Below are positions 7,332 to 37,857 of a stretch of 37,857 nt of DNA, in pieces. The stretch lies in contig JAHYJD010000025.1 in assembly GCA_019429365.1 (NCBI GenBank), positions 1 to 37,857 of the forward strand. The letters run 5' to 3'. This stretch comes from Bacteroidales bacterium (GTDB lineage Bacteria > Bacteroidota > Bacteroidia > Bacteroidales > UBA7960). Each line of letters begins with the position of its first letter. The stretch's first letter is position 1. The notes beneath the pieces are model-generated. The model saw only the letters and a list, made by a program, of their open reading frames with translations. It was not told where the DNA came from and made no database searches. A program made the position numbers and the translations under genes.

Positions 7332-9581
7332 CTAGAATTTTCCGCTGAAGCGCAAACTGAAATGCCGCTGGGGCTGAATGTCGCCCGGACGGCCCATATA
7401 TTCGGCATTGGTAAGGTTTTTTATCGCAAGCGAGATGGCGTAATTCGCAGAAATACGGTATCCCAGGCTAAGGTCCGCCAGAAAATGTCCGCGGTTATTA
7501 TCCAGCCAGTAATCGTAAAAGCCGGGCAGGATGGCTTCTCGCGTTAATTCGTTCACAAACACATCGTCGATGTTGAGTATGCGCGAACGGGCAAAAAGGT
7601 GGAGGCCAAGTTCGTACCTGTGGAGGCTGGTCGAAAGGCTTAGCTTGGCCGAGTGCTTGCGCCGGTATTTCAGTAAAGTGCCGGTATCTTTCAGGGTGTA
7701 TGGATTGAATTCTGTTGGATACATGAATACATAGCCGCCATTAATGCTATAGTTAAACCGGCCCAGCCTGGTGTTGAGCATAAACTCCAGCTCCATACCA
7801 TATACCCTTGAGTTTTCGGTATTATTTGCCTGAAAACCCAGACCAAACTCGCCGGAGTATGGGTCGGGATACAAGCCAAACAGAAACTCAATCATGTCTT
7901 TATTCCTGGTATAAAACAGGGCCAGGTCAACCAAGCCATCCAGTTTTTCAGTCAGAATGCCTTGCTTAAGGCCCAGTTCGGCATTCCAGCCCGACTCTGG
8001 ATTCAGGGTTGGATTAGGAAAAATCCGAACTGCTCCCAGCGTGGTGGCAGCAAATTTTTCGGCAATGGAAGGGTAGCGGTAGCCCTGCCCAAAGGAGCCC
8101 CGCAAAAAAGTAAGTTCGGTTAAACGATAATTTATGCCGGCCCTGAAAAGGGGCACCAACTTGTCGCTCAGGCCATTCAGGCTGTTGAATTCAAGCCGCA
8201 GTCCACCCACCAGTTTCAGTCGCTCAGTGGGGCTAAAATCCGACTGGACGTAAGCCGCCAGGTTGAGTGACTCGTGATCGCCGTAAAAGTTGGAGCGGAT
8301 CGTGTTGCTTTGCTGTACCAGTCCTGCATTAAGGTTTACCAACGGACTGATGTTGTACCAGACCTGGTATTCGGCAAAAAGTGACTGCGCCTGGCTGTCG
8401 ATCTGGTTGCCACTGGGGAAGCGGTTATTCAGAAACTGGTATCGCATGCGCACATCGTGCGAGAAATGCCCGCTTCTTTTAAAGCTAATTGTGGGGTCGA
8501 GTACAAGAATCGTTGCATTGAGCCGGGTGGCAGTGCTGGTATCGTGCACCAGGGCACCTGTTTCAGCATTTTCCCAAAGCACAAAATCGGTTTTGTCGTT
8601 CATCAGAAAGTTGGCCTGAAGCCCGTAAGTTAGGCCTTCCATTTTCTGATTGTGGTGTTTGACCATAAGATTCATTCGTCCGGAGGTCTCGTCGTTGCGC
8701 TTGCGATATCCGGGATCGCTCTGAAAAAATGCTCCGGCGCCGAAATCCGTATCCCCGTATTTTTTCAGGTGAGAAAAGGAATAATTGCTGAGAATGCGGG
8801 GGCTGTCCCACCACACCCAGTTTTGTTGTCTGGGTTTGTCAAATATTCCCGCTTCCGCGAAAAAGGAAGTGCTTCCGCGGCTGCTTGCTTCGGCGGTACG
8901 AAAGTTAATAATACCATTAAGTGCTGACGAGCCATATAAAACCGAGGAAGCACCTTTGATAATTTCAATCTGGGAAAGGTTTTCGAGGGGCAGTGCCGAC
9001 CATCGTATGCTGCCCACATCGGGCGATACCATAGGCAGGCCGTCCACCAGTGCCATCACCCTGCTTCCTGCACCATAAGCAAAGCCGCTGCCTCCCCGCA
9101 TGGAGGCCTGTCCGTCGAGCACTTCAATGCCGGGCTGCTTGTTGAGGAGTTCGGTGGGATCGGTAATGTGCTCGCTTTGCAGGGCTTTGGGCTTAATAAT
9201 ACTTACGGAAACCGTCGATTCAGCTACCCGCTGCTCCACCCGTCCGGCGCTAACGATTACCTGTTCCATTTCGGTAAGCTCGGGCTCAAGGGCAAAGTTG
9301 AGTGTCAATAGTTCTCCTGCACGAAGGTTTAGCGGCCGTGAAATACTGCTGTAACCAACGTATTGAATGCTGAGGGTATAGTTTCCCGCAGCCATTACAA
9401 TGCTGAAGTTTCCTTCCTGGTCGCTTACCGTGCCACGGTCGCGGGTCAACAAAATGGTAGCTCCCGGAAGGACCTCGCCGGTTTGCCGGTCAGTAATACG
9501 GCCATTAAGAGTGGCAGTGGACTGGGCAAAAGCAATACCCGCCCAAAACAGCAGAAATAAAGCAGTAAGACTTCGGGACAT
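7332..9581 (-). CDS. TonB-dependent outer-membrane receptor
   Basis: This 749-residue protein starts with a Sec signal peptide (cleavage near AFAQ). A carboxypeptidase-regulatory-like beta-sandwich follows (about 22-105, GRITDRQTGEVLPGATI), then a plug domain (about 115-230). The plug contains IKGASSVLYGSSALNG and RVMALVDGLPMV. A 22-strand barrel ends in LRFSGKF with the usual terminal phenylalanine. The size is that of a siderophore, heme or cobalamin-class receptor rather than a SusC protein of about 1000 residues, and no SusD is adjacent. The substrate cannot be assigned. The ATG overlaps the stop codon of the upstream lipoprotein gene (TAATG), so the two are translationally coupled and probably act together at the outer membrane. 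Confidence 0.9.
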   Translation of the reverse strand: MSRSLTALFLLFWAGIAFAQSTATLNGRITDRQTGEVLPGATILLTRDRGTVSDQEGNFSIVMAAGNYTLSIQYVGYSSISRPLNLRAGELLTLNFALEPELTEMEQVIVSAGRVEQRVAESTVSVSIIKPKALQSEHITDPTELLNKQPGIEVLDGQASMRGGSGFAYGAGSRVMALVDGLPMVSPDVGSIRWSALPLENLSQIEIIKGASSVLYGSSALNGIINFRTAEASSRGSTSFFAEAGIFDKPRQQNWVWWDSPRILSNYSFSHLKKYGDTDFGAGAFFQSDPGYRKRNDETSGRMNLMVKHHNQKMEGLTYGLQANFLMNDKTDFVLWENAETGALVHDTSTATRLNATILVLDPTISFKRSGHFSHDVRMRYQFLNNRFPSGNQIDSQAQSLFAEYQVWYNISPLVNLNAGLVQQSNTIRSNFYGDHESLNLAAYVQSDFSPTERLKLVGGLRLEFNSLNGLSDKLVPLFRAGINYRLTELTFLRGSFGQGYRYPSIAEKFAATTLGAVRIFPNPTLNPESGWNAELGLKQGILTEKLDGLVDLALFYTRNKDMIEFLFGLYPDPYSGEFGLGFQANNTENSRVYGMELEFMLNTRLGRFNYSINGGYVFMYPTEFNPYTLKDTGTLLKYRRKHSAKLSLSTSLHRYELGLHLFARSRILNIDDVFVNELTREAILPGFYDYWLDNNRGHFLADLSLGYRISANYAISLAIKNLTNAEYMGRPGDIQPQRHFSLRFSGKF

Positions 9582-9991
9582 TACTTTGCCTTAAAGGTCA
9601 TTCGGATTAAAAGGCTTTGTCCGGGATTTAACGGATCGGGAAAAGCAGTGCTGATTTTTAGGTCTGTTTTGGTAAGTTCCTCAATCAAGGCCGTAAGCGG
9701 CAGCGGTAGTTCCTCAGTAGTTATAACCAGCTGGGTTTCGTTTTGCGAAAAACGCCAGGTGCCCTGGTAATTACCAAAAGTTCCGGTGCCGTCGGTATTG
9801 AATTTTGCATCGCCCATAAAATCCACCAGCATGCCGTCGGGGCCACTGGCGTCCTGCCCGTTTACCAGCAGGCTGTCAGAGGTCCAAACGTGGGCAGTGA
9901 GCAAAGTAAAGGGAGTGTCTTCATCCTCCTTATCGCAACCAAAAGAAAGGATTAATACTGCCGAAAGAAAAAGCAGAACAAATTTTTTCAT
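9581..9991 (-). CDS. Small lipoprotein, lipocalin-like, function unknown
   Basis: This 136-residue protein has a lipoprotein signal peptide with lipobox LSFGC (Cys19). The acidic stretch DKEDEDTP follows and resembles the lipoprotein export signal for the cell surface. The mature part reads like a lipocalin-type beta barrel of the Bacteroidota kind: LLTAHVWTSDSLLVNG near the N-terminus, then GTGTFGNYQGTWRFSQNETQLVI. It is upstream of, and overlaps by one base, the TonB-dependent receptor, suggesting an accessory surface protein for that receptor. The fold call is from pattern only. Confidence 0.72.
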   Translation of the reverse strand: MKKFVLLFLSAVLILSFGCDKEDEDTPFTLLTAHVWTSDSLLVNGQDASGPDGMLVDFMGDAKFNTDGTGTFGNYQGTWRFSQNETQLVITTEELPLPLTALIEELTKTDLKISTAFPDPLNPGQSLLIRMTFKAK

Positions 9992-26923: not shown

Positions 26924-28492
26924 ATGGATCAGGAAAAAGATAAAAACAAGCCCGGCGAATTTAACCGCCGCGATATTCTGAAAGGGTTGGCTGCCATTCC
27001 AGCATTCGGGCTTATTGGCTATGGGTTGTTCAAAGAAATTGGCGAACTGAAGGCCAGCCGCATCAACTTACTTGGACAGGACGATTCCATTATTCCTAAG
27101 GGAGCTCCCCTGGTGTTGCAGGGCGAAACCATACGCCTGGGCATTGTAGGCTGCGGCGGGCGGTCGCGTTACCTGCTTAAGGCCCTTGGATTTCTTCATC
27201 CCGAGCGCATCGACGAGTATGCTGGTTGGGCCCGCACCAACAAATACTGGAAAGAGTACATGGAAGAATTTTTTGCCCAGGACAATCTTAATGTGAGAAT
27301 CACAGCCATATGTGATGTGTTCGACAAGAACGCTCGCCTGGGGGTGGAAATAGGCGCCAACCTTTACCGCAACGGCAGGGGAGGCGCAATGGACACTATT
27401 CCGAAACGGTATCAAACCTATCAGGAGTTATGCGCCTCCCCCGAGGTCGATGCGGTAATAATTGGCACACCTGACCATTTGCATGTGCCGGTGGCACTCG
27501 AAGCCGCCCGCAACGGAAAGCATGTGTATTGCGAAAAACCACTTTCGTGGACCGTGGAAGAAACCTTCGAGGTGCGACAGGTGGTGAAAGATTCGGGCAT
27601 AGTGTTTCAGCTGGGACACCAGGGCCGGCAAACCGACAGCTACCAGGTTGCCCGCTCACTCATTAATCGCGATGTAATTGGCAAAATATCGCTTATTGAA
27701 GTTTGCACCAACCGTAACGATCCCAATGGGGCCTGGGTGTATGACATTGACCCTGAAGCCAGCCCCGATACCATAGACTGGAAGCAGTTTATTGGCCCTG
27801 CGCCCTGGCACGAATTCAGCCTGGAACGTTTTTTCCGGTGGCGCTGCTGGTGGGATTACAGCACCGGGCTGAGTGGCGACCTTTTTACCCATGAGTACGA
27901 CGCCCTCAACCAAATTCTCGACCTTGGCATCCCTCATTCGGCTATGGCTTCCGGAGGTATTTACTTTTACAAAGATGGCCGCACCGTGCCCGATATACTC
28001 AACATGGCCTTTGAATATCCCGACCGGGATTTTACATTGCTGTATAGCGCCACCCTGGCCAGCGAAAAAAAACGCGGCAAGGTCATTATGGGCCACGATG
28101 CCTACATGGAACTTGACGAGACCCTGCTCATTATGGCCGATCCCAAATCGACCCGTTATGCTGAGCAGATCGAAAAAGGTATTATTGAGCCGCATAAGCC
28201 GCTGTTTTCATACGTGCCCGGGCAGGATCGCGTGGATGCCATCACTTCGCCCACAGAGAAGTACTTTGCTGAGCGGGGATTGCTCTACACTTTCCGCGAT
28301 GGAAAAACCTACGATACTTCCCATTTGCATTTGCGCGAGTGGCTCAACTGCATCAGGAAAGGCGATGGCTCACAGCCCAGCTGCGACATAGATCAATCGT
28401 TCGAAGAAGCTATGACAGCGCATATGGGAACCATTTCGTACCACGAAGGCCGACGGGTTTACTGGGATGCTGCCAGCGAAAAAATTGTGTAG
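26924..28492 (+). CDS. Exported Gfo/Idh/MocA-family dehydrogenase (Tat-type signal)
   Basis: This 522-residue protein has a twin-arginine signal (NRRDILKGLAAIPAFGLIGYG, about residues 10-30 in part). The Rossmann fold follows with LGIVGCGGRSR (about 68-78), TAICDVFD, IIGTPDHLHVPVAL and the conserved HVYCEKPLSW lysine motif. The C-terminal domain has WWDYSTGLSGDLFTHEYD. The family oxidises or epimerises sugars with a tightly bound NAD(P); exported members are expected to recycle their cofactor in place. The start at 26924 is chosen over 26876 because the upstream extension overlaps the doxX gene and precedes the normal signal peptide. It is the first dehydrogenase of a 3-keto-glycoside-type cluster. 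Confidence 0.92.
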   Translation: MDQEKDKNKPGEFNRRDILKGLAAIPAFGLIGYGLFKEIGELKASRINLLGQDDSIIPKGAPLVLQGETIRLGIVGCGGRSRYLLKALGFLHPERIDEYAGWARTNKYWKEYMEEFFAQDNLNVRITAICDVFDKNARLGVEIGANLYRNGRGGAMDTIPKRYQTYQELCASPEVDAVIIGTPDHLHVPVALEAARNGKHVYCEKPLSWTVEETFEVRQVVKDSGIVFQLGHQGRQTDSYQVARSLINRDVIGKISLIEVCTNRNDPNGAWVYDIDPEASPDTIDWKQFIGPAPWHEFSLERFFRWRCWWDYSTGLSGDLFTHEYDALNQILDLGIPHSAMASGGIYFYKDGRTVPDILNMAFEYPDRDFTLLYSATLASEKKRGKVIMGHDAYMELDETLLIMADPKSTRYAEQIEKGIIEPHKPLFSYVPGQDRVDAITSPTEKYFAERGLLYTFRDGKTYDTSHLHLREWLNCIRKGDGSQPSCDIDQSFEEAMTAHMGTISYHEGRRVYWDAASEKIV

Positions 28493-28509
28493 GGATTAAA
28501 AAGAAAGAG

Positions 28510-29559
28510 ATGTCAGAAAAGATCAATGCTGCAATAGTAGGATTCGGATTGTCAGGAAAGGTATTTCACGCACCCTTTCTGCAAACAAGCCCCTTGTTCA
28601 GGCTGTATACGATTGTCTCATCTGGCACAGAGGCCCAAAGCTGCTATCCGGCCGCCAGGGTAATTTCAAGTTTCGATGAGCTGCTTGCTGATCCGGCCCT
28701 TGAGTTGGTGGTCCTCTGTACGCCTCACCATCTGCATGCCGGGCAGGCCATCCGCGCCCTGGAGGCAGGTAAGCACGTGGTTGTTGAAAAACCGGTGGCC
28801 ATGAGCAGCGCCGAAATGAATCAAATCATGCAGGCAGCTCAAAAGTCTGGTAAGCAGATATTTCCATACCACAACCGCCGCTGGGATGGCGACTTCATGA
28901 CGCTGCGCCATCTCATCGCAGCAGGCTTTATTGGCGAAGTGCTTGATTTTGAATCGCATTTCGATCGTTACCAGCCCGAGGTAAGGAGGGCCGAGTGGAG
29001 ATATGTGAATGAAAATGGCGGCGGTACTCTCTTCGATCTTGGTCCACACCTGATAGATCAGGCCATTTGCCTGTTCGGAAGGCCCGATGCGGTTTGGTGC
29101 AGGCTGTACTTTCAGCGGCCGGGCAGCAAGGCAAACGACAGTTTCGACCTGAAACTTTTTTATCACCGGACAACGGCCACCCTCCGGGCCGGAATATTCG
29201 TGATGGAGCCCGGACCGCGCTTCCAGGTACATGGCACGCTTGGCTCATACATAAAATATGGGCTCGACACCCAGGAAGCTGCGCTTAAGAAAGGCAAAAA
29301 GCCAACCGCAATAAATTTCGGCAGTGAACCCGAAAAAATGCACGGACTATTGCATTCAGTTGCACGCAAACAATCCCTAAGAGAAAAATTTAAAACCTTT
29401 TCCGGACGATATATGGGTTTTTACGAAAATGTGTATGATGTCATTTCGGGAAAAGACCGCCCAGAAGTAACTTCAGAAGATGCCTTGCTCAACCTTCAGA
29501 TAATTGAAGCCGCTTTAATTAGCCACATTGAAAAAAGAATCATAAATTTAACAGCCTGA
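28510..29559 (+). CDS. Cytosolic Gfo/Idh/MocA-family oxidoreductase
   Basis: This 349-residue protein has no signal peptide. The N-terminal NAD(P)-binding fold reads AAIVGFGLSGKVFHAPFL (residues 6-23), and the lysine motif is HVVVEKPVAMS. PYHNRRWDGDF and GGGTLFDLGPHLIDQA lie in the catalytic domain. This is the pattern of E. coli YdgJ and B. subtilis IolU/IolW-like inositol or sugar dehydrogenases. The start at 28510 gives the standard N-terminus; an open frame back to 28339 overlaps the upstream gene in another frame. In this cluster it could reduce a 3-keto sugar back after import, while its exported relatives oxidise. That division of labour is inferred. Confidence 0.9.
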   Translation: MSEKINAAIVGFGLSGKVFHAPFLQTSPLFRLYTIVSSGTEAQSCYPAARVISSFDELLADPALELVVLCTPHHLHAGQAIRALEAGKHVVVEKPVAMSSAEMNQIMQAAQKSGKQIFPYHNRRWDGDFMTLRHLIAAGFIGEVLDFESHFDRYQPEVRRAEWRYVNENGGGTLFDLGPHLIDQAICLFGRPDAVWCRLYFQRPGSKANDSFDLKLFYHRTTATLRAGIFVMEPGPRFQVHGTLGSYIKYGLDTQEAALKKGKKPTAINFGSEPEKMHGLLHSVARKQSLREKFKTFSGRYMGFYENVYDVISGKDRPEVTSEDALLNLQIIEAALISHIEKRIINLTA

Positions 29560-29611
29560 AGTCAATTATTCTTTGGTGTTGATTTTTTCTAAACCTGAAA
29601 ATCCATTAAAA

Positions 29612-30466
29612 ATGAGTACACGACGCGAGTTCTTACGATCTTTATCGTTGCTTTCAGCAGGGCTTTTTCTGGCTTCTGCAAAAGGCAAAAAAGTAAATCA
29701 GCTGCATTCCAGTAAGAAGGGAATTGGCATACAGCTATATTCTTTAAGGGATGTTATCTGGGACGACCTGCAGGCTACCATGGAAGGAGTGAGCAGCATT
29801 GGTTTTTCAGGTGTGGAGGCATATGGTTTTGATGGGCGCTCTTTCTTCGGAATGGAAGCAAGGGCATTTAAGCAACTTTGCGACGACCTGTCCCTCGAAA
29901 TTTACAGCACCCATACCGGGATTACAGAACTTAATGCTGCCGCATATGCCGAAACGGCCGCCGACATTGGGATGAAATTCCTGGTGCTGCCGTCCTTTGG
30001 AGGGCGGCCAAACAGCACCATTTCCGATTACCAGCGGGCTGCCCAAGAAATGAACCGCATGGGTGAAATCTGCAATAGTTTCGGGGTTCGCTTCGGCTAC
30101 CACAACCACGATTTCGAATTTAAAAAGATTGGCGAAGTCATGCCATTCGATATTTTATTGAAAGAAACCGAACCCGAACTGGTTACTTTCCAGGCCGATA
30201 CCTATTTCTTCGCCAAGTCAGGTCTCGACCCGGTTCAATGGTTCAAAAACTACCCCGGTCGCTTCGAATCGCTGCATTTGAAAGACCTGGGCATGGATGG
30301 TGAGAGTTGTATTATTGGCAACGGAGTTGTTGATTTTGAAGCAGTGCTGGCTTCGGCTGGTGCCAAACTGCTTATTTACGAGCAGGAACATTGCGCGGAA
30401 GGTTCGTCGCTTTACTGCGCAGAGCAGAGCATCCGTTATATTCATTCACATTTATTAAAGCCTTAA
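29612..30466 (+). CDS. Exported sugar phosphate isomerase/epimerase-fold protein
   Basis: This 284-residue protein starts with a Tat-like signal (STRREFLRSLSLLSAGLFLASA). The rest is an AP-endonuclease-2-type TIM barrel: GIGIQLYSLRDVI, GVEAYGFDG, YSTHTGITE, FGYHNHDFEF, QADTYFF, LHLKDLG and the final YEQEH segment supply the metal-binding Glu, His and Asp residues. Relatives such as E. coli YcjR act on 3-keto glycosides made by a Gfo/Idh partner (YcjS). Export together with two Gfo/Idh enzymes fits a periplasmic 3-keto-sugar step. The start at 29612 is chosen for the signal peptide; an open frame to 29573 adds 13 unlikely residues. Confidence 0.88.
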   Translation: MSTRREFLRSLSLLSAGLFLASAKGKKVNQLHSSKKGIGIQLYSLRDVIWDDLQATMEGVSSIGFSGVEAYGFDGRSFFGMEARAFKQLCDDLSLEIYSTHTGITELNAAAYAETAADIGMKFLVLPSFGGRPNSTISDYQRAAQEMNRMGEICNSFGVRFGYHNHDFEFKKIGEVMPFDILLKETEPELVTFQADTYFFAKSGLDPVQWFKNYPGRFESLHLKDLGMDGESCIIGNGVVDFEAVLASAGAKLLIYEQEHCAEGSSLYCAEQSIRYIHSHLLKP

Positions 30467-30470
30467 AACT

Positions 30471-31955
30471 ATGGAAGAAGCTGACAAAAAGAGCAATGCC
30501 ATGGATCGCCGCAAGTTTATCAAAAACACGGCCCTGGCCTCTGCAGGTTTTATGATCATGCCCAGTCATGTCGTATCAGGATTGGGTCACCGCATGCCCA
30601 GCGACAAGCTGAATATTGCCGGTGTGGGCGTGGGTGGCCGCGGTGGCGGCGTGATAAGGGCCGTAAACAGCGAAAACATTGTGGCCCTGTGCGATGTCGA
30701 CTGGAAATACTCGGCCCGCATCTTCAGCGAATTTCCCAACGCACGTAAATATTACGACTGGCGTGTGATGTTCGATGAAATGAAAGACTCTATTGATGCC
30801 GTAGTAGTTGGTACTCCCGACCATACCCACGCCATCATCAGCATCAATGCCATGAAAATGGGTAAACACGTGTATTGCGAGAAGCCGCTGACACATTCTG
30901 TTTGGGAGTCGAGAGAAATGACCCGGGTAGCCAAGGAGTACAAAGTGGCTACCCAGATGGGCAACCAGGGCAATTCAGGCGAAGGTATCCGTCAGACCTG
31001 CGAATGGATTTGGGATGGTGCCATCGGCGAGGTTCGCGAAGCCCATGCCTGGACAAACCGCCCCATTTGGCCGCAAGGCCTCGAAAGGCCAGCAGAATCA
31101 ATGCCAGTGCCCGACACCCTTAACTGGGACGTATTCCTCGGGCCTGCACCATACAGGCCTTTTCACCCAACCTATACGCCATGGAACTGGCGCGGATGGT
31201 GGGACTTCGGCACAGGGGCCCTGGGCGATATGGCCTGCCACATTATGGACCCCATTTTCATGGCCCTTAACCTGAAATATCCTACCAGGGTGCAGGGAAG
31301 CTCCTCACAGTTCAACACCGAGTCGCCACCCCTGGCCGAAGTGGTGAAGTACGTCTTCCCCGAAAGGGAAAATTTCCACAACCTGGCCATGCCTGAAGTT
31401 TCAGTTACATGGTGGGATGGCGGACTATTGCCTCCAAGGCCTGAAGAATTGCCCGATGGTGAAGTGATGGGACGCGATCCCAACGGGGGCTGCCTGCTGA
31501 TTGGCACCAAAGGCAAGATTATGACCGGATGCTATGGCAGGGATCCATTCCTGCTGCCGCTCGATTACAACCAGAACTACAAGCGCCCGGCTCCTCAGCT
31601 GCGACGCGTTGACACCAGCCACGAAATGGACTGGGTAAGGGCCTGCAAAGAGAGCCCCGAATACCGGCAGGAAGCCAGCTCATATTTCGGCTATTCAGGT
31701 CCCATGAACGAAATGGTGGTGATGGGTGTGGTAGCCGTCAGGCTGCAAGACCTCAAACGAGAACTCCTTTGGGATGGCGAAAATATGCGCTTTACCAACA
31801 TCGGCGATAACGACGAGATCAGGGTGGTGCAAAGCGATAAATTCGAAATTATTGACGGGCACCCCCACTTTGATACAAAACACGAAACCATGAATGCCAA
31901 AGCTGCTGCTGAGGAGTATATCAGACATACCTACAGGGCAGGCTGGACCATGTAA
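30471..31955 (+). CDS. Second exported Gfo/Idh/MocA-family dehydrogenase
   Basis: This 494-residue protein has a twin-arginine signal (MDRRKFIKNTALASAGFMI from residue 11) and a glycine-rich Rossmann motif, AGVGVGGRGGGVIRA. VVGTPDHTHAII, the lysine motif HVYCEKPLTHS and a C-terminal region with WNWRGWWDFGTGALGDMACH follow. It belongs to the large Bacteroidota/Planctomycetota group of exported Gfo/Idh proteins. It differs clearly from the first exported dehydrogenase, so the pair is not a recent tandem duplication. GH109 glycosidases share the fold, but I see nothing that assigns this protein to that family. It follows the isomerase gene by 4 nt and precedes the DUF1080 gene. Confidence 0.92.
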   Translation: MEEADKKSNAMDRRKFIKNTALASAGFMIMPSHVVSGLGHRMPSDKLNIAGVGVGGRGGGVIRAVNSENIVALCDVDWKYSARIFSEFPNARKYYDWRVMFDEMKDSIDAVVVGTPDHTHAIISINAMKMGKHVYCEKPLTHSVWESREMTRVAKEYKVATQMGNQGNSGEGIRQTCEWIWDGAIGEVREAHAWTNRPIWPQGLERPAESMPVPDTLNWDVFLGPAPYRPFHPTYTPWNWRGWWDFGTGALGDMACHIMDPIFMALNLKYPTRVQGSSSQFNTESPPLAEVVKYVFPERENFHNLAMPEVSVTWWDGGLLPPRPEELPDGEVMGRDPNGGCLLIGTKGKIMTGCYGRDPFLLPLDYNQNYKRPAPQLRRVDTSHEMDWVRACKESPEYRQEASSYFGYSGPMNEMVVMGVVAVRLQDLKRELLWDGENMRFTNIGDNDEIRVVQSDKFEIIDGHPHFDTKHETMNAKAAAEEYIRHTYRAGWTM

Positions 31956-31998
31956 TTTTATTAATCAAAAAACCAAACCAAACTAGAAAGGAAGAAGT

Positions 31999-32751
31999 AT
32001 GAAAAAAATGATGCTGTTAATGGTGCTGGCTCTTGCTGTGGCTGCTTGTGGCGGTCAGCAGCAAAAGGCCGATGCCGAAGAAGTAGTTGCCGATAATACC
32101 TTGACTGAAGCCGAAATCGAAGAGGGCTGGATGTTGCTTTTCGACGGAGAAAACCCCGGCAATTGGCGCGGATACAACAAGGATTATTTCCCCAACGGTT
32201 GGGTGATCGAAGAAGGCATGATTCGTTGTATCGGATCAGGCCGTGGTGAAGCGGGTGGACTGGAAGGAGGCGATATCATTTATGATGAGAAGTTTTCGGA
32301 TTTTGAGCTTTCGCTCGAATGGAAGATATCGCCCGGAGGTAACAGCGGTATCTTTTACCTGGCTCAGGAAAGTCCAGATATGACCATCTGGCAGACCGCC
32401 CCTGAAATGCAAGTGCTCGATAACACAACACACCCTGATGGCCGCGATGGCTTGCACAGTGCCGGGGCGTTGTACGATCTCATTGGGGTTGACCAGGATA
32501 AAGTGAAGCCGGTTGGCGAATGGAACCAGGTGAGAATACTTATTTACAGGGGTCAGGTGGAGCATTGGCTGAACGGCGAAATGGTCGTGAAATATCACCT
32601 TTGGACACCCGAATGGTACGAAATGGTTGCCAATAGCAAATTTCCAAGTTACAATCCTGACTGGGCTGAAGTGGCTCAGGAAGGATACATTGGCCTGCAA
32701 GACCATGGCGACGATGTGTGGTATAAAAACATCAAGCTGAGAAAATTGTAA
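31999..32751 (+). CDS. DUF1080 lipoprotein (3-keto-glycoside hydrolase/lyase family)
   Basis: This 250-residue lipoprotein (lipobox AVAAC, Cys16) has one DUF1080 concanavalin-like beta-sandwich. Typical segments are GWMLLFDGENPGNWRGYN, DFELSLEWKISPGGNSGIFY, PEMQVLDNTTHPDGRDG, SAGALYDL, WNQVRILIYRGQVEHWLNG and the ending GYIGLQDHGDDVWYKNIKLR. Family members (PF06439, 3-keto-disaccharide hydrolase) cleave glycosides after the sugar has been oxidised at C3. Placement behind two exported Gfo/Idh dehydrogenases and an isomerase is the classic context and supports that role. AAAGGAAGAAG lies directly before the ATG. A terminator-like hairpin follows. Confidence 0.92.
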   Translation: MKKMMLLMVLALAVAACGGQQQKADAEEVVADNTLTEAEIEEGWMLLFDGENPGNWRGYNKDYFPNGWVIEEGMIRCIGSGRGEAGGLEGGDIIYDEKFSDFELSLEWKISPGGNSGIFYLAQESPDMTIWQTAPEMQVLDNTTHPDGRDGLHSAGALYDLIGVDQDKVKPVGEWNQVRILIYRGQVEHWLNGEMVVKYHLWTPEWYEMVANSKFPSYNPDWAEVAQEGYIGLQDHGDDVWYKNIKLRKL

Positions 32752-32765
32752 GGCTTTTTTGCAGT

Positions 32766-32804
32766 AAACATAAGCCGGTGGTAGGTTACTGCCGGCTTTT
32801 GTTT
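32766..32804 (+). terminator. Terminator-like hairpin between DUF1080 and GH29 genes
   Basis: AAGCCGG (32772-32778) pairs with CCGGCTT (32792-32798) around a 13-nt loop. An outer AAAC/GTTT pairing extends the stem, and TTTTGTTT follows. Only 37 nt separate it from the GH29 start. It may fully end the dehydrogenase operon or reduce readthrough into the hydrolase genes. Confidence 0.75.
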
Positions 32805-32841
32805 ATTTAATTGAGGATTACTTTTTAAAGGAATTGTTTTT

Positions 32842-34674
32842 ATGAGAAGAGTACTTTCCCTTGCGGGAAGCAGGAATGGTTTTGTCCTGGCTTTCCTGAT
32901 ATTTTTTTGCTTTCCCCTTTTTAGTCAGGATTATGTTGTAGAAGAATCCTGGGAATCCTTGCGCAACCGTCCTTATCCGCAATGGTTCAAAGATGCCAAA
33001 CTGGGCGTATTTATTCATTGGGGGGTGTATTCGGTGCCATCGTATGGCGGTCCTGAATCTTATGCCGAATGGTATTTGCGGGGTTTACAGGCCGGTGCCC
33101 AGAACCGAATAGACTTTATGAAAGAATACTGGGGCGAAGATTTTGAATACGAGGACTTTGCTCCCTTGCTCAAAGCCGAACTTTTCGATGCCGACGAATG
33201 GGCCGAAATTTTTGAAAGGGCAGGAGCTAAATATATCATTTTGGTAAGCAAGCACCACGACGGCTATTGCCTGTGGCCCAGCGAATATGCTCCCGGATGG
33301 AACAGCGTGGATGTGGGCCCCATGCGCGATGTGGTGGGCGAAGTGGCCGATGCCGTGCGCAAGCGCGAAATAAAATTCGGGCTGTATTATTCGCTTCCGG
33401 AGTGGAACCACCCGCTGCACCGCTGGTATATCGACCCGCACGAAGACATTCATCCCTACATTCAGCAGCACATGATTCCGCAGTTCAAGGAAGTGGTGAG
33501 CACCTACAAACCCCATGTGTTGTTTACCGATGGAGAGTGGTTTCATTCGGCCGAAGATTGGAATGCGCGTCAGCTTATAGCCTGGTATTACAACCTGGTG
33601 GGCCCCGATGCCATTGTGAATGATCGCTGGGGCCATGGGGCTGACATTGGCTTCAAAACGCCCGAATACAGCTCGGGCCGTATTCAGACCGACCGCCCCT
33701 GGGCAGAGGTGCGCGGGCTGGGCCGGAGCTTTGGCCTCAACCGTAACGAAAAACTGGAGGCTTATATGAGCCCCGAAGAACTGATCCATTTTTTTGCCAG
33801 GGCAGTGGCCAACGGAGGTGGCATTACCATCAATGTGGGGCCTGGAGCCGATGGCAAAATTCCGCTCTTGCAGCAAGAACGGTTGGAGCAGCTTGGTGCC
33901 TGGATTAGGGTGAACGAGGAGGCCATTTATGCCTCGACGCAATGGAGTAAAAACGGCGAAGAAAAAGAGGTGACACTGGAGCGCATCGACCCGCAGGTTC
34001 ATTTCAATTGGGTGAGAAATTCTCCCGGTCAACCCATTTCGGAAGATAACTTCACGGCTACCTGGACCGGATATATCATGCCCGACTTCTCCGAAGAATA
34101 TCTTTTTTCGGCTGTGGCCGATGACGGGATGCGCCTTTACATCGATGGGCAGTTGGTACTCGATATGTGGAACCAAACAAAAGAGGGAACCCAGTCGGAA
34201 GCCATGCGCGAAGGGATAGGGCAGGCCCTGGAAGGCAAAGTGCGACTGCGCAGGGGGCAAAAATATCCGATAAGGGTTGAATACCGCGAAGATTATCAAA
34301 ATGCCAACATCAGTCTTTTCTGGGAGAGCCGTTCGCTGCCGCGTGAAGTGGTGCCACAGAAGAACCTTTTTTCCCGTAAGGAAAACCAAACCGGCGATGG
34401 CCTGAGTGCCGTGTACCGCTCAATGTATCAATACCTGGCCTATACCCACAACCATGGAAACCTTTATGCCATTGCCTTTGAATGGCCCGATGAGGTGCTG
34501 ACCCTTCCCATTGCCGAACCGGATGCCGGAACAAGCATAACGTTGCTGGGCCGCGAGGGTGATTTGCCCTGGAAATATGAAAATGGAAAGCTCAAAATAG
34601 ATGTGAGCCAGGTGAGATACAATGAAATACCTGGCCACTATGCCTGGACCTTTAAAATCGAAAACTATGAATAG
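32842..34674 (+). CDS. GH29 alpha-L-fucosidase with C-terminal PA14 domain
   Basis: This 610-residue secreted enzyme has a Sec signal (cleavage near PLFSQ). The GH29 barrel (about 30-365) carries KLGVFIHWGVYSVPSY from residue 53 and SKHHDGYCLWPS. The nucleophile region HVLFTDGEW has Asp230, and GGGITINVGPGADGKIP closes the barrel. A PA14 domain follows (about 388-505, with FSAVADDGMRLYIDGQLVLDMW), which probably binds glycan. A short C-terminal strand region (about 520-610) is last. It removes alpha-linked fucose, for N-glycans the core or antennary fucose. The stop codon overlaps the next GH20 gene by 8 nt, so these two are translationally linked. Confidence 0.94.
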   Translation: MRRVLSLAGSRNGFVLAFLIFFCFPLFSQDYVVEESWESLRNRPYPQWFKDAKLGVFIHWGVYSVPSYGGPESYAEWYLRGLQAGAQNRIDFMKEYWGEDFEYEDFAPLLKAELFDADEWAEIFERAGAKYIILVSKHHDGYCLWPSEYAPGWNSVDVGPMRDVVGEVADAVRKREIKFGLYYSLPEWNHPLHRWYIDPHEDIHPYIQQHMIPQFKEVVSTYKPHVLFTDGEWFHSAEDWNARQLIAWYYNLVGPDAIVNDRWGHGADIGFKTPEYSSGRIQTDRPWAEVRGLGRSFGLNRNEKLEAYMSPEELIHFFARAVANGGGITINVGPGADGKIPLLQQERLEQLGAWIRVNEEAIYASTQWSKNGEEKEVTLERIDPQVHFNWVRNSPGQPISEDNFTATWTGYIMPDFSEEYLFSAVADDGMRLYIDGQLVLDMWNQTKEGTQSEAMREGIGQALEGKVRLRRGQKYPIRVEYREDYQNANISLFWESRSLPREVVPQKNLFSRKENQTGDGLSAVYRSMYQYLAYTHNHGNLYAIAFEWPDEVLTLPIAEPDAGTSITLLGREGDLPWKYENGKLKIDVSQVRYNEIPGHYAWTFKIENYE

Positions 34675-36994
34675 GAGAAAAATCATTTTCATGGCCGTGG
34701 TACTCGGCATTTTTATGATGTCGTGCCGGTCGAAAACCCAATATGAGAATATCAGCCTGATACCGCTTCCGGTAAAAATGGATGTTTCAGCAGGCAGTTT
34801 TACTATAAAACCGCAAACCCCTCTTTTGTTTTCGACTCATGAGCTGGAAGGCATGGCGGATTATGCGGCTGAACTTTGGGACGCCTATCTGGGCTTTGAA
34901 CTCAGGACTGAAAAGGATGATGGACTGAAGGGAAGCAATACCATAACTCTGGCACTTAATTCGCGTTACGATGAGGAACTGGGTGAAGAGGGATACACGT
35001 TGAGGGTTAAAAAAGATGGCATACGTATTTCAGGTAACAGGCCTGCAGGGGTACTTTACGGCATTCAAACACTCTATCAGCTGTTGAGTACCAATTCCGA
35101 AGGGAAACTGCCACTGGTAAACATCAAAGATTACCCGCGTTTCAGTTACCGTGGGGTGCATCTGGATGTGGCGCGCCATTTCCATCCAATGGAATTCATT
35201 TACAAAATGATGGACCAGATGGCCATGCACAAGCTCAATGTGTTTCACTGGCACCTGATCGACGATCAGGGCTGGCGCCTTGAGATCAAGAAATATCCCA
35301 GGCTTACCAGTGTGGGCGCCTGGCGGGTGGATATGCCGGAGCTGCACTGGAATGCCCGACCGTTGGTGAACGACCCGGCCAGCGCCACCTACGGCGGATA
35401 CTACACCCAGGAAGAGGTGAAAGCCCTGGTGGCCTATGCAGCAGAGCGCAACATTACCGTTATACCCGAAATTGAAATGCCGGCCCACGTCATGTCGGCA
35501 CTGGCTGCCTATCCCGAGCTTTCATGCACAGGCGAAAACCTGGGTGTACCTCCTGGCGGGGTGTGGCCCATTACGCACATTTATTGTGCTGGCAACGATG
35601 AAACCTTCGGGTTTCTCGAAAATGTGCTGCTGGAAGTGATGGAATTGTTTCCTTCAGAGTACATTCATATTGGAGGTGATGAGGCCGACAAGACCAACTG
35701 GAAATCATGCCCCAAATGCCAGACACGCATTGAAGAAGAAGGGCTAAACGATGAGGAAGAGCTTCAAAGTTATTTCATTACCCGCATCGAAAAGTTTCTG
35801 AACGCACAAGGCCGTCAGATCATTGGCTGGGATGAGATTCTGGAGGGCGGTCTTGCACCCAATGCCACGGTGATGTCGTGGAGAGGAGAAGCCGGTGGTA
35901 TTGAAGCGGCCAAAATTGGCAATACGGTAGTGATGACTCCGGGAAGTCATTGTTACTTTGATCACTATCAGGGTGACCCCGACCTGGAACCCCTGGCTTT
36001 TGGAGGATACACCACCCTGGCAAAGGTCTATTCGTACGAACCCATTCCAGAAGTGTTGACCAAAGAAGAAAGCAAGCTCGTGCTGGGTGCCCAGGCCAAT
36101 TTATGGACCGAATATATTTCTGACACCCGTCACGCAGAATACATGTATTTTCCACGACTGGCTGCACTGGCCGAGGTGGTTTGGTCACCAAAGAATCATC
36201 GCGACTGGGGCGACTTTTCCAGAAGGATGGAGGCCCAATACAAGAGATATGAAGTACAAGACATCAACTACGCGCTCAGTGCCTTCCAGGTGAGCGCCAG
36301 CCCCAAGGTAAATATTGATGACAAAACGCTCAGAATCACCCTCGCCTCTGAGGTTTACAAACCTGAGATCCGTTACACCCTCGATGGCAGCACACCCGAT
36401 GTAAGTTCATTGCTTTACACCAGTCCTTTTGAAATCAATCAGACTACCACAGTGAAAGCTGCCGTAACGCGAAACGGCCAACTGATTGACCAGGTAATTG
36501 AACGGGAGTATTACCTGCACAAAGCCTTTGCAGCAAATATTGAAATGGAGCACCCCAACAGCCCGAATTATGATGCCCATGGAGAGTACAGCCTGGTAAA
36601 TGGCATCAGGGGTAGCCGCAGCTACTCTGATGGCAACTGGAAGGGTTTCAGTGGGGTTGATCTGGTGGCAACTATTGACCTTGGCGAAGAAACAAGCATA
36701 AGCCATGTTTCGGTTGATGCATTGCAAACCTCCGGTTCATGGATATTTGTACCGCAATGGGTTTCCTTCGAAATATCGGCCAGTGGAGAGAATTATGAGC
36801 TGCTTGAAACGGTGATGAATACCATTGATGTAAACGATAGCCGGCGCCTTGTGGAGGTGTATGCCACCAGGCAGCCGGCTGAAAATGTCCGCTTCATCAG
36901 GATTACAGCCAAGAACCAGGGGGTGTGCCCTCCGGGCCACACTGGCGAAGGTCAACCCGCATGGTTGTTTGTAAGTGAGATTGTGGTGGAGTAG
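34667..36994 (+). CDS. GH20 beta-N-acetylhexosaminidase with F5/8-type C-domain
   Basis: This 775-residue lipoprotein (lipobox FMMSC) has a GH20b domain (about 28-145) and a GH20 catalytic barrel (about 150-515). The barrel contains SYRGVHLDVARHF, FHWHLIDDQGWRLEI and the catalytic Asp338-Glu339 in HIGGDEADKTNW. A chitobiase-type Ig-like domain (about 545-615, YTLDGSTPD) and a C-terminal F5/8 type C (CBM32-like) domain (about 620-775) follow. The start at 34667 is used because the upstream in-frame ATG at 34622 lies inside the GH29 gene and precedes no signal peptide. It lacks the N-terminal chitobiase domain of the first GH20 enzyme, so the two probably act on different beta-linked HexNAc contexts. 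Confidence 0.95.
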   Translation: MNRRKIIFMAVVLGIFMMSCRSKTQYENISLIPLPVKMDVSAGSFTIKPQTPLLFSTHELEGMADYAAELWDAYLGFELRTEKDDGLKGSNTITLALNSRYDEELGEEGYTLRVKKDGIRISGNRPAGVLYGIQTLYQLLSTNSEGKLPLVNIKDYPRFSYRGVHLDVARHFHPMEFIYKMMDQMAMHKLNVFHWHLIDDQGWRLEIKKYPRLTSVGAWRVDMPELHWNARPLVNDPASATYGGYYTQEEVKALVAYAAERNITVIPEIEMPAHVMSALAAYPELSCTGENLGVPPGGVWPITHIYCAGNDETFGFLENVLLEVMELFPSEYIHIGGDEADKTNWKSCPKCQTRIEEEGLNDEEELQSYFITRIEKFLNAQGRQIIGWDEILEGGLAPNATVMSWRGEAGGIEAAKIGNTVVMTPGSHCYFDHYQGDPDLEPLAFGGYTTLAKVYSYEPIPEVLTKEESKLVLGAQANLWTEYISDTRHAEYMYFPRLAALAEVVWSPKNHRDWGDFSRRMEAQYKRYEVQDINYALSAFQVSASPKVNIDDKTLRITLASEVYKPEIRYTLDGSTPDVSSLLYTSPFEINQTTTVKAAVTRNGQLIDQVIEREYYLHKAFAANIEMEHPNSPNYDAHGEYSLVNGIRGSRSYSDGNWKGFSGVDLVATIDLGEETSISHVSVDALQTSGSWIFVPQWVSFEISASGENYELLETVMNTIDVNDSRRLVEVYATRQPAENVRFIRITAKNQGVCPPGHTGEGQPAWLFVSEIVVE

Positions 36995-37003
36995 CAGGAG
37001 TAA

Positions 37004-37240
37004 ATTGCCAAAGGACAGCGCGTGGAGTCATTTGCTGTGGAAGCCTTGCTAGATAGGCAATGGCAGGAGATAGCCAGCGGAACTACTATCGGATACAAAC
37101 GCCTGCTGCACTTTTAACCGGTAACATCCGACCGCATTAGGATTTCCATTAATGAAGCCAGACACCATGCACTGATTTCCAGATTGGGATTATATCTGAC
37201 GCCCGAAATTCATTCCGACCTGGTCGTTGACAGCAAATAG
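37004..37240 (+). pseudogene. Remnant of a GH29 alpha-L-fucosidase C-terminus
   Basis: The 310-nt gap between the GH20 and GH95 genes keeps one reading frame with the C-terminal pattern of GH29 fucosidases. It reads GQRVESFAVEA, then a QWQEIASGTTIGYKRLLHF segment, an in-frame TAA at 37115-37117, then PVTSDRIRISINEAR and LISRLGLYLTPE. It ends at a TAG at 37238-37240. The frame continues unbroken across the TAA, so one nonsense change explains it. The barrel-encoding part is missing altogether. The intact GH29 nearby ends in a PA14-type region unlike this, so the remnant is from a second fucosidase, not a copy of the neighbour. The rest of the gap (37241-37304) shows nothing recognisable. Confidence 0.78.
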
Positions 37241-37304
37241 AAGAATCGGAAAATTATAATCCCTGGCTGAGCTTCCAAGGGTAACCCGATAAATTGGTTT
37301 AAAT

Positions 37305-37857
37305 ATGAAAAGACTAATTGGCTTGGTTTTCATTCTATTGATATTTTTTGCCTGTTCGAAACGAATCGACAAAACCGCTGAGTTGGTTCTCTGGTATGAT
37401 TCTCCAGCAACCGATTGGATGAAGGAAGCCCTTCCTGTGGGCAATGGTTATATGGGTGTGATGTTTTTTGGAGATCCTGACAAAGAACATTTGCAGTTTT
37501 CTGAAGGCTCTTTGTGGGCGGGCGGTCCGGGTTCTGGGGCACAGTATAATTTCGGGATCAGGGAGGGCGCTTATCGATTTCTTCCGGAGATAAGGGAATG
37601 GCTGGAACAAGGCAATACCAGCAAAGCCTTTGAACTGACAAGTCAGCATTTAAGTGGTATTATTCATCCCCGTGAAGGACTTGGTTTTGGCGATTATGGC
37701 GCCCAGCAAACCATGGGCGACTTGCTGGTCAACGTTCAGAATCAGGGCGAAATTTCTGGCTACCGCAGGGAGATGAACCTGAACACCGGAAGGGGAGGAG
37801 TGAATTATAAAGCCGGAGAAGTGACTCATAGCCGCACTTTATTTGGAGTTTACCCCC
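37305..37857 (+). CDS. GH95-type alpha-L-fucosidase, N-terminal part (cut by window edge)
   Basis: An open frame begins at ATG 37305 and runs off the window after 184 residues. It starts with a lipoprotein signal (lipobox IFFAC, Cys17). The GH95 N-terminal domain follows: LVLWYDSPATDWMKEALPVGNGYMGVMFFG, in parts, then LQFSEGSLWAGGPG and GDYGAQQTMGDLLV. Most GH95 enzymes have NE in the LQLNEDTLWSGGP motif where this one has SE. GH95 enzymes invert alpha-1,2-fucosyl (some alpha-L-galactosyl) linkages; the catalytic residues lie beyond the edge. The position after GH29 and GH20 genes supports a fucosylated-glycan target. Confidence 0.9.
   Translation, partial: MKRLIGLVFILLIFFACSKRIDKTAELVLWYDSPATDWMKEALPVGNGYMGVMFFGDPDKEHLQFSEGSLWAGGPGSGAQYNFGIREGAYRFLPEIREWLEQGNTSKAFELTSQHLSGIIHPREGLGFGDYGAQQTMGDLLVNVQNQGEISGYRREMNLNTGRGGVNYKAGEVTHSRTLFGVYP

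Follow-up and report, generated by a model that had tools for sequence, protein, structure and literature searches.

A probable deletion relic of a second GH29 gene beside GH20 in a Bacteroidales glycan-use cluster

We conclude with high confidence that the spacer between a GH20 gene and a GH95 gene of a Bacteroidales bacterium holds a deletion relic, that is a pseudogene fragment, of a GH29 gene, probably one of subfamily B. This conclusion is carried by the homology of the spacer to GH29 enzymes, by the presence of the same left junction in a second species, by an intact GH29 gene at the corresponding place in a third and by the stop codons in the frame. The window, the stretch of DNA that was analysed, makes up the entire contig C177 (37,857 bases) of a 3.57-Mb draft genome, which comprises 224 contigs and is 95.9% complete. 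A glycan-use cluster occupies the right part of the window and runs from a GFO/IDH/MocA oxidoreductase to the start of GH95. The features are listed below, GH29A and GH29B being labels that we take to stand for type A and type B of the two GH29 kinds.

30471-31955: GFO/IDH/MocA oxidoreductase
31999-32751: 3-keto-disaccharide hydrolase-type protein
32842-34674, plus strand: GH29A, an intact GH29 with PA14 and Fucosidase_C domains, of another GH29 type than the remnant
34622-36994, plus strand: GH20 gene (790 aa), left flank of the remnant
36983-37003, plus strand: left junction, with the last GH20 codons and stop V-V-E-TAG (TAG at 36992-36994) and a second stop, TAA, at 37001-37003
37004-37240, plus strand: GH29 remnant, 78 codons (the internal TAA at 37115-37117 counted among them) and then TAG at 37238-37240; about residues 428-507 of the intact G002 enzyme
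37241-37304, plus strand: 64-nt spacer from the remnant to the start of GH95
37305-37857, plus strand: 5' part of GH95 (184 codons, N-terminal domain), cut by the contig end

GH29 homology of the spacer

Between the 26 open reading frames taken as genes there are 10 gaps of 60 nt or more, and the one between GH20 and GH95 (36995-37304, 310 nt) exceeds all others in length. An earlier note had read in it a C-terminal GH29 sequence in one frame with a single internal TAA, and this reading is borne out by phmmer, tblastn and Markov controls. The note had also proposed a GH29 search with the translated frame. A phmmer search of the PDB gave 13 distinct sequences at E<=10, and 12 of these had E<=0.014. 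The top match (1.1e-16) was to positions 395-463 of 4zrx, which bears no other name than 'F5/8 type C domain protein'; after it came SpGH29 and two others of its set (from 2.2e-11 for SpGH29 to 3.2e-11, positions 387-451 of 451-452), '0940_GH29' (1.2e-8) and a putative alpha-L-fucosidase chain (1.6e-6). The weaker matches, down to an E of 0.64, include alpha-1,3/4-fucosidases (0.0065) and several named fucosidases. Moreover, the remnant is about 59-60% identical (60% over residues 1-75) to the GH29B of G002, a genome of the same genus. It is these chain matches, together with 59% identity to an enzyme that bears PF01120, that mark the stretch as derived from GH29. Against the G002 enzyme the real gap scored 92.8 bits and the best of 2000 Markov-randomised gaps 26.9, so that the homology stands far above chance. 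In Pfam and NCBIfam the remnant matched nothing at E<=1, as can be understood from its being part of a module; even the intact G002 enzyme gives no Fucosidase_C match at E<=0.01.

The G002 enzyme (P0001, 717 aa) carries PF01120 at 86-374 and a NedA-like galactose-binding module at 394-477, followed by CHB_HEX_C/Fn3-associated and F5/8 type C domains up to residue 711. The remnant corresponds to about residues 424-507 and so takes in the second half of the first beta-sandwich module plus a short stretch of linker; the catalytic (beta/alpha)8 domain is absent from it (no PF01120 match at E<=1). As for the type of GH29, the intact GH29A of the window carries PF16757, which the GH29B of G002 lacks at E<=0.01. 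In the profile and phmmer searches the remnant matches SpGH29 and alpha-1,3/4-fucosidase chains and not Fucosidase_C. We take these chains to belong to subfamily B, whose usual activity is on alpha-1,3/4 linkages. The beta-sandwich module of SpGH29 spans residues 318-451 according to a legend in PMC10154630; as the remnant matches 387-451, about half of the module would be missing. The C-terminal domain that had been claimed can thus be identified, but only about its second half is present. Compared with enzymes of the SpGH29 kind (PDB 6orf, 6org and 6or4; also 4zrx), the remnant has neither the catalytic domain nor the first half of the module, carries stops in frame and is no enzyme.

When the spacer was searched by tblastn with the G002 GH29, the match began ahead of 37004, at 36983 (query residue 424), and ended at 37228 or 37234, reading through the GH20 stop and the TAA behind it. 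It fills 237 to 246 of the 310 nt, and to this extent the unusual spacing that the note wished to explain is accounted for. The remnant amounts to about 80 residues matching GH29 chains, out of 717 in the G002 enzyme, with TAG, TAA and TAA in frame. Truncated, interrupted and with an intact homologue in a relative, it has the marks of a pseudogene fragment. In the 64 nt that follow, neither the tested proteins (at E<=0.001) nor Rfam (at E<=1) gave a match.

In its own genome the remnant matches only itself at E<=1, and the single GH29 catalytic match is the PF01120 at 32935-33921 in GH29A. A tblastn search of the 10 gaps at E<=0.001 yielded no relic besides this one; its queries were the 26 window frames and eight proteins of the cluster, of which G002 supplied six and the window two, and it would miss other families. 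Traces of GH35, GH110-like, GH2 or GH95 genes were absent from the 310-nt gap at E<=1, and a 9-residue match there to the radical-SAM protein (E 0.93) was taken as chance. On the flanks, the GH20 C-terminus shows a weak F5/8 type C match (23.1 bits, under the Pfam cut-off of 28.2), and the window's genome yielded no GH95 catalytic domain, the contig ending at GH95 codon 184. The listed GH20 start overlaps the end of GH29A by 53 nt (34622-34674), and the protein matches of loci L068 and L069 show the same kind of GH29A/GH20 overlap.

The same place in related genomes

The remnant was searched against 147 genomes, its own included, and matched in 34 of them at E<=0.001. Within the genus, matches came from G003 (96% identity) and G002 (60%) but not from G001; the GH29B of G002 is the nearest intact relative among the 147 genomes. 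The G002 genes run in one direction in the order GH29A-GH20-GH35-GH29B-GH110-like-GH2-GH95, the protein with GLAA-B barrel domains being presumably GH110-like, and GH95 is followed by a radical-SAM protein, a BNR-repeat protein, a GH20-domain protein and a LacI-type regulator. The syntenic comparison suggested in the note has thus uncovered an intact GH29B between GH20 and GH95, which supports its view that a second GH29 once stood here and was mostly deleted. The rich cluster of G002 (L060 and L157, on contig C27), with its second GH20-domain protein before the LacI-type regulator, would suit complex fucosylated, mucin-like or blood-group-like glycans.

G003 (UBA4814; contig taken as DHFW01000041.1) carries GH29A, GH20, the remnant, a headless GH95, a LacI-type regulator and GH92. 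Over 36900-37235 it agrees with the window at 329 of 336 bases, both junction stops included. The codon at the window's internal TAA is TCA in G003; since G003 has the same left junction, this TAA cannot be counted as part of the deletion. The stretch 34214-34509 of the window's GH29A (296 nt) is missing from G003, whose GH29A shows no Fucosidase_C match at E<=0.01.

We then consider how far G002 may stand for the ancestor. A scan of named genomes with GH20 as the query gave 80 loci, with flanks of uneven length. GH29A lies directly before GH20 in 10 of these (L067-L069, L071-L073, L080, L082, L083 and L085), and a GH29B-like match lies downstream of GH20 in two (tblastn E<=1e-10, best non-overlapping matches): L067, which is G003, and L084, where the order is GH20-GH29B-GH35. 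At the 7 of the 80 loci where Pfam was used to name the gene after GH20, it is a LacI-type regulator (L070, L073), GH92 (L072), a CBM9-like protein (L071), a sulfatase (L069), another GH29 beyond an unscanned 170-codon frame (L068) or GH29B (L084). With content so varied, the G002 order need not be ancestral. Moreover, a family search with the G002 GH29B matched 8 of 47 genomes at E<=1e-20, the window's own, G002 and G003 among these; the other matches are distant (30-48% identity), so G002 may have acquired its GH29B apart. A domain tree of the window, G003, G002 and the other remnant-search loci with enough sequence grouped the window with G003 at 0.97 and joined G002 at only 0.52, with the broken copy of G093 next (0.83). 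Descent from the same gene copy as that of G002 therefore rests mainly on position. If the ancestor was G002-like, the GH35, GH110-like and GH2 genes would have been lost too. Measured against the G002 layout, the left junction lacks about 3.2 kb, made up of GH35 and 423 GH29B codons, and less if GH35 was never present.

The two edges of the remnant

The codons at the left junction end the GH20 gene and also align with a GH29 motif, V-V-x-L-Q-E-Y/D-I. At this motif the intact GH29 of L009 reads N-V-V-M-L-Q-E-D-I-A-K and others are similar, with CAG GAG TAT or CAG GAG TAC in L006, L008, L022 and L029. GH20 ends with E-I-(V/I)-V-E and a stop in L068, L071, L080, L082 and L085. Because GH20 and GH29 read alike over V-V-E, the exact break point is ambiguous; junction partners that read alike fit a deletion between short repeats, without proving one. 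We infer the following course of events. In an ancestor, GH20 and GH95 would have been separated by an intact GH29 and probably by further hydrolase genes. A deletion would have joined the end of GH20 to the middle of the GH29 beta-sandwich module, where both read alike; GH20 would have remained whole, and the start, signal peptide and catalytic domain of GH29 would have been lost. The right edge near 37235 would be due to a second break or, with lower probability, to a short-form GH29 that ended there naturally. The window copy also carries the internal TAA.

Such a junction might also arise if an assembler had joined two distant stretches. Both carriers are drafts, G003 being a metagenome assembly in about 60 contigs, and identity along GH20 is mosaic, as described below. 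Against this, the same left junction is found in two genomes regarded as separate species, which are identical from 36960 to 37115, across GTG-GTG-GAG-TAG-CAG-GAG-TAA-ATT, and differ on both sides of that stretch. We find an artefact hardly credible.

The right edge as it stands in the window is known from one genome only. The remnant continues as TPEIHSDLVVDSK, so that its last 10 or so residues resemble the linker of the long forms (G002 SPEILSDPVITRNKEG, G138 APEIMSLPTISRNKQG). Among the relatives' tails compared, those of the short forms L007, L013, L017, L018, L019 and L027 reach no more than about 8 residues past the conserved end. The remnant may nevertheless be the true C-terminus of a short-form GH29, a variant of the gene-loss view with a single deletion and an original right flank: an in-frame stop follows at once, several relatives end soon past this module, and only 64 nt separate the stop from GH95. 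Since TPEIHSDLVVDSK is longer than the short-form tails and resembles the long-form linkers, we hold this variant to be possible but rather unlikely, and a second break is probably what set the edge. The note's word 'tail' may therefore not apply: the fragment may be internal to its gene, the G002 gene running about 210 codons further.

In G003 a further change is seen at this edge. Identity to the window ends at 37235, and the frame continues into GH95, the joint running from ...EIHSDLAVDS to ILFFFG... and aligning with the G002 GH95 from residue 205. V-D-S occurs in both partners; the codons at the break are GTTGACAGC in the window, GTTGACAGC in G003 and GTAGACAGT in the G002 GH95 (7 of 9 bases). 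The simplest reading is that G003 would have arisen from a window-like state by a short-repeat deletion that removed about the first 217 GH95 codons; the GH95 part gone from G003 cannot be seen, and the window contig stops before the GH95 point concerned. The product of this joint is a chimeric frame of 635 codons (L059, contig C9 of G003, 7884-9791, minus strand), a GH29 module fragment fused to GH95 without about its first 217 codons. Its PF22124 domain is complete and the GH95 N-terminal domain is absent; the frame presumably has no signal peptide.

We also weighed whether the remnant was kept for a function, as a stand-alone sugar-binding module, as an extension of GH20 by read-through of the stop, or as a regulatory RNA. 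The frame of G003 is open after the second stop, and identity between the two carriers is high. However, the piece is only about half a beta-sandwich module (by the module limits in that PMC10154630 legend), the remnant is set off from GH20 by two stops in each of the two genomes and, in the window, is interrupted by a third, and the DNA right beside it is gone in G003. The half module and the stops make the stand-alone module and the GH20 extension unlikely; for a regulatory RNA, no Rfam match was found at E<=1 over 36900-37400 on both strands. A retained function thus appears very improbable. We return to the pseudogene reading: judged from its sequence, the remnant very probably makes no product.

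Age, parallel decay and turnover of the locus

The junction stops TAG and TAA are common to the window and G003. Synonymous divergence between these two is about 0.065 in the remnant, 0.046 over GH20 36011-36992 and 0.024 over GH20 34622-35410. In 77 remnant codons we count about 3.5 synonymous and about 3.5 replacement changes, including the last codon beside the G003 break; with so few changes neutral drift is not demonstrable from this pair, and against G002 synonymous sites are saturated, giving no dN/dS value. Over GH20 35411-36010 synonymous divergence rises to about 1.4, with 0.02-0.05 in the flanks, either because a tract was imported into the window or G003 or because an assembly is chimeric. 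Identity between the two is 92-99% outside 35410-36009 and 77-87% inside it (over 34510-37235), and 90% on average over 27513-34213. This mosaic indicates that recombination or assembly chimerism has touched GH20, and the scar may have spread by transfer.

The earlier note spoke of a recent remodelling of fucose specificity. 'Recent' is fair for the loss only in a loose sense, and specificity is a matter of conjecture, as GH29 also includes alpha-galactosidases and alpha-glucosidases according to passages of PMC10154630.

A GH29B gene is also broken in G093 (L004, contig C16), which belongs to another family of the order and would be a separate case of decay. There, residues 11-217 and 426-494 lie in different frames; the junction reads ...AACAGGAATATATT..., joined at CAGGAATAT, with an upstream in-frame TAA. 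As in the window, the break is at the Q-E-Y-I codons (residue 426), here joined to about residue 217 of the catalytic domain; unlike in the window, the deletion lies inside the gene and the N-terminal part is retained. In G002 the catalytic-domain position reads CAGGAATAT and the module position GAATACATT, so that a short repeat may have been involved in G093. Breaks at the Q-E-Y-I codons in two lineages are two cases picked after the fact, a lead and no finding.

The remnant resembles known prokaryotic pseudogenes (64-genome survey, PMC522871; Pseudofinder, PMC9336565) in being a truncated, stop-bearing homologue, located in a spacer, of a gene that a relative has intact. Nothing here differs from these in kind; what is particular is the sugar-use cluster and the further deletion beside the scar in a related genome. 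Among the papers listed, none appeared by title and abstract start to give an account of such a relic; one may still exist in print.

Taken as a single case, the remnant is ordinary, one eroded gene in a sugar-use cluster, and would seem to reflect everyday gene loss at a sugar-use slot of varying content. Within one genus, it belongs to a series of an intact gene (G002), a trimmed gene with its scar (the window) and a scar with a deletion into the next gene (G003). One might go further and suppose that the stretch from GH20 to the LacI-type regulator is a turnover slot in this Bacteroidales group, where whole hydrolase genes would enter and then be trimmed by deletions between short repeats within coding motifs that recur (for GH29 Q-E-Y-I, in two lineages; for GH95 V-D-S), sometimes leaving chimeric frames such as that of G003; we offer this as a distinctly doubtful conjecture. 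The GH95 frame of G003, if annotated, would be a truncated enzyme with a foreign N-terminus, and fucosidase gene counts in such clusters read better when relics are sought.
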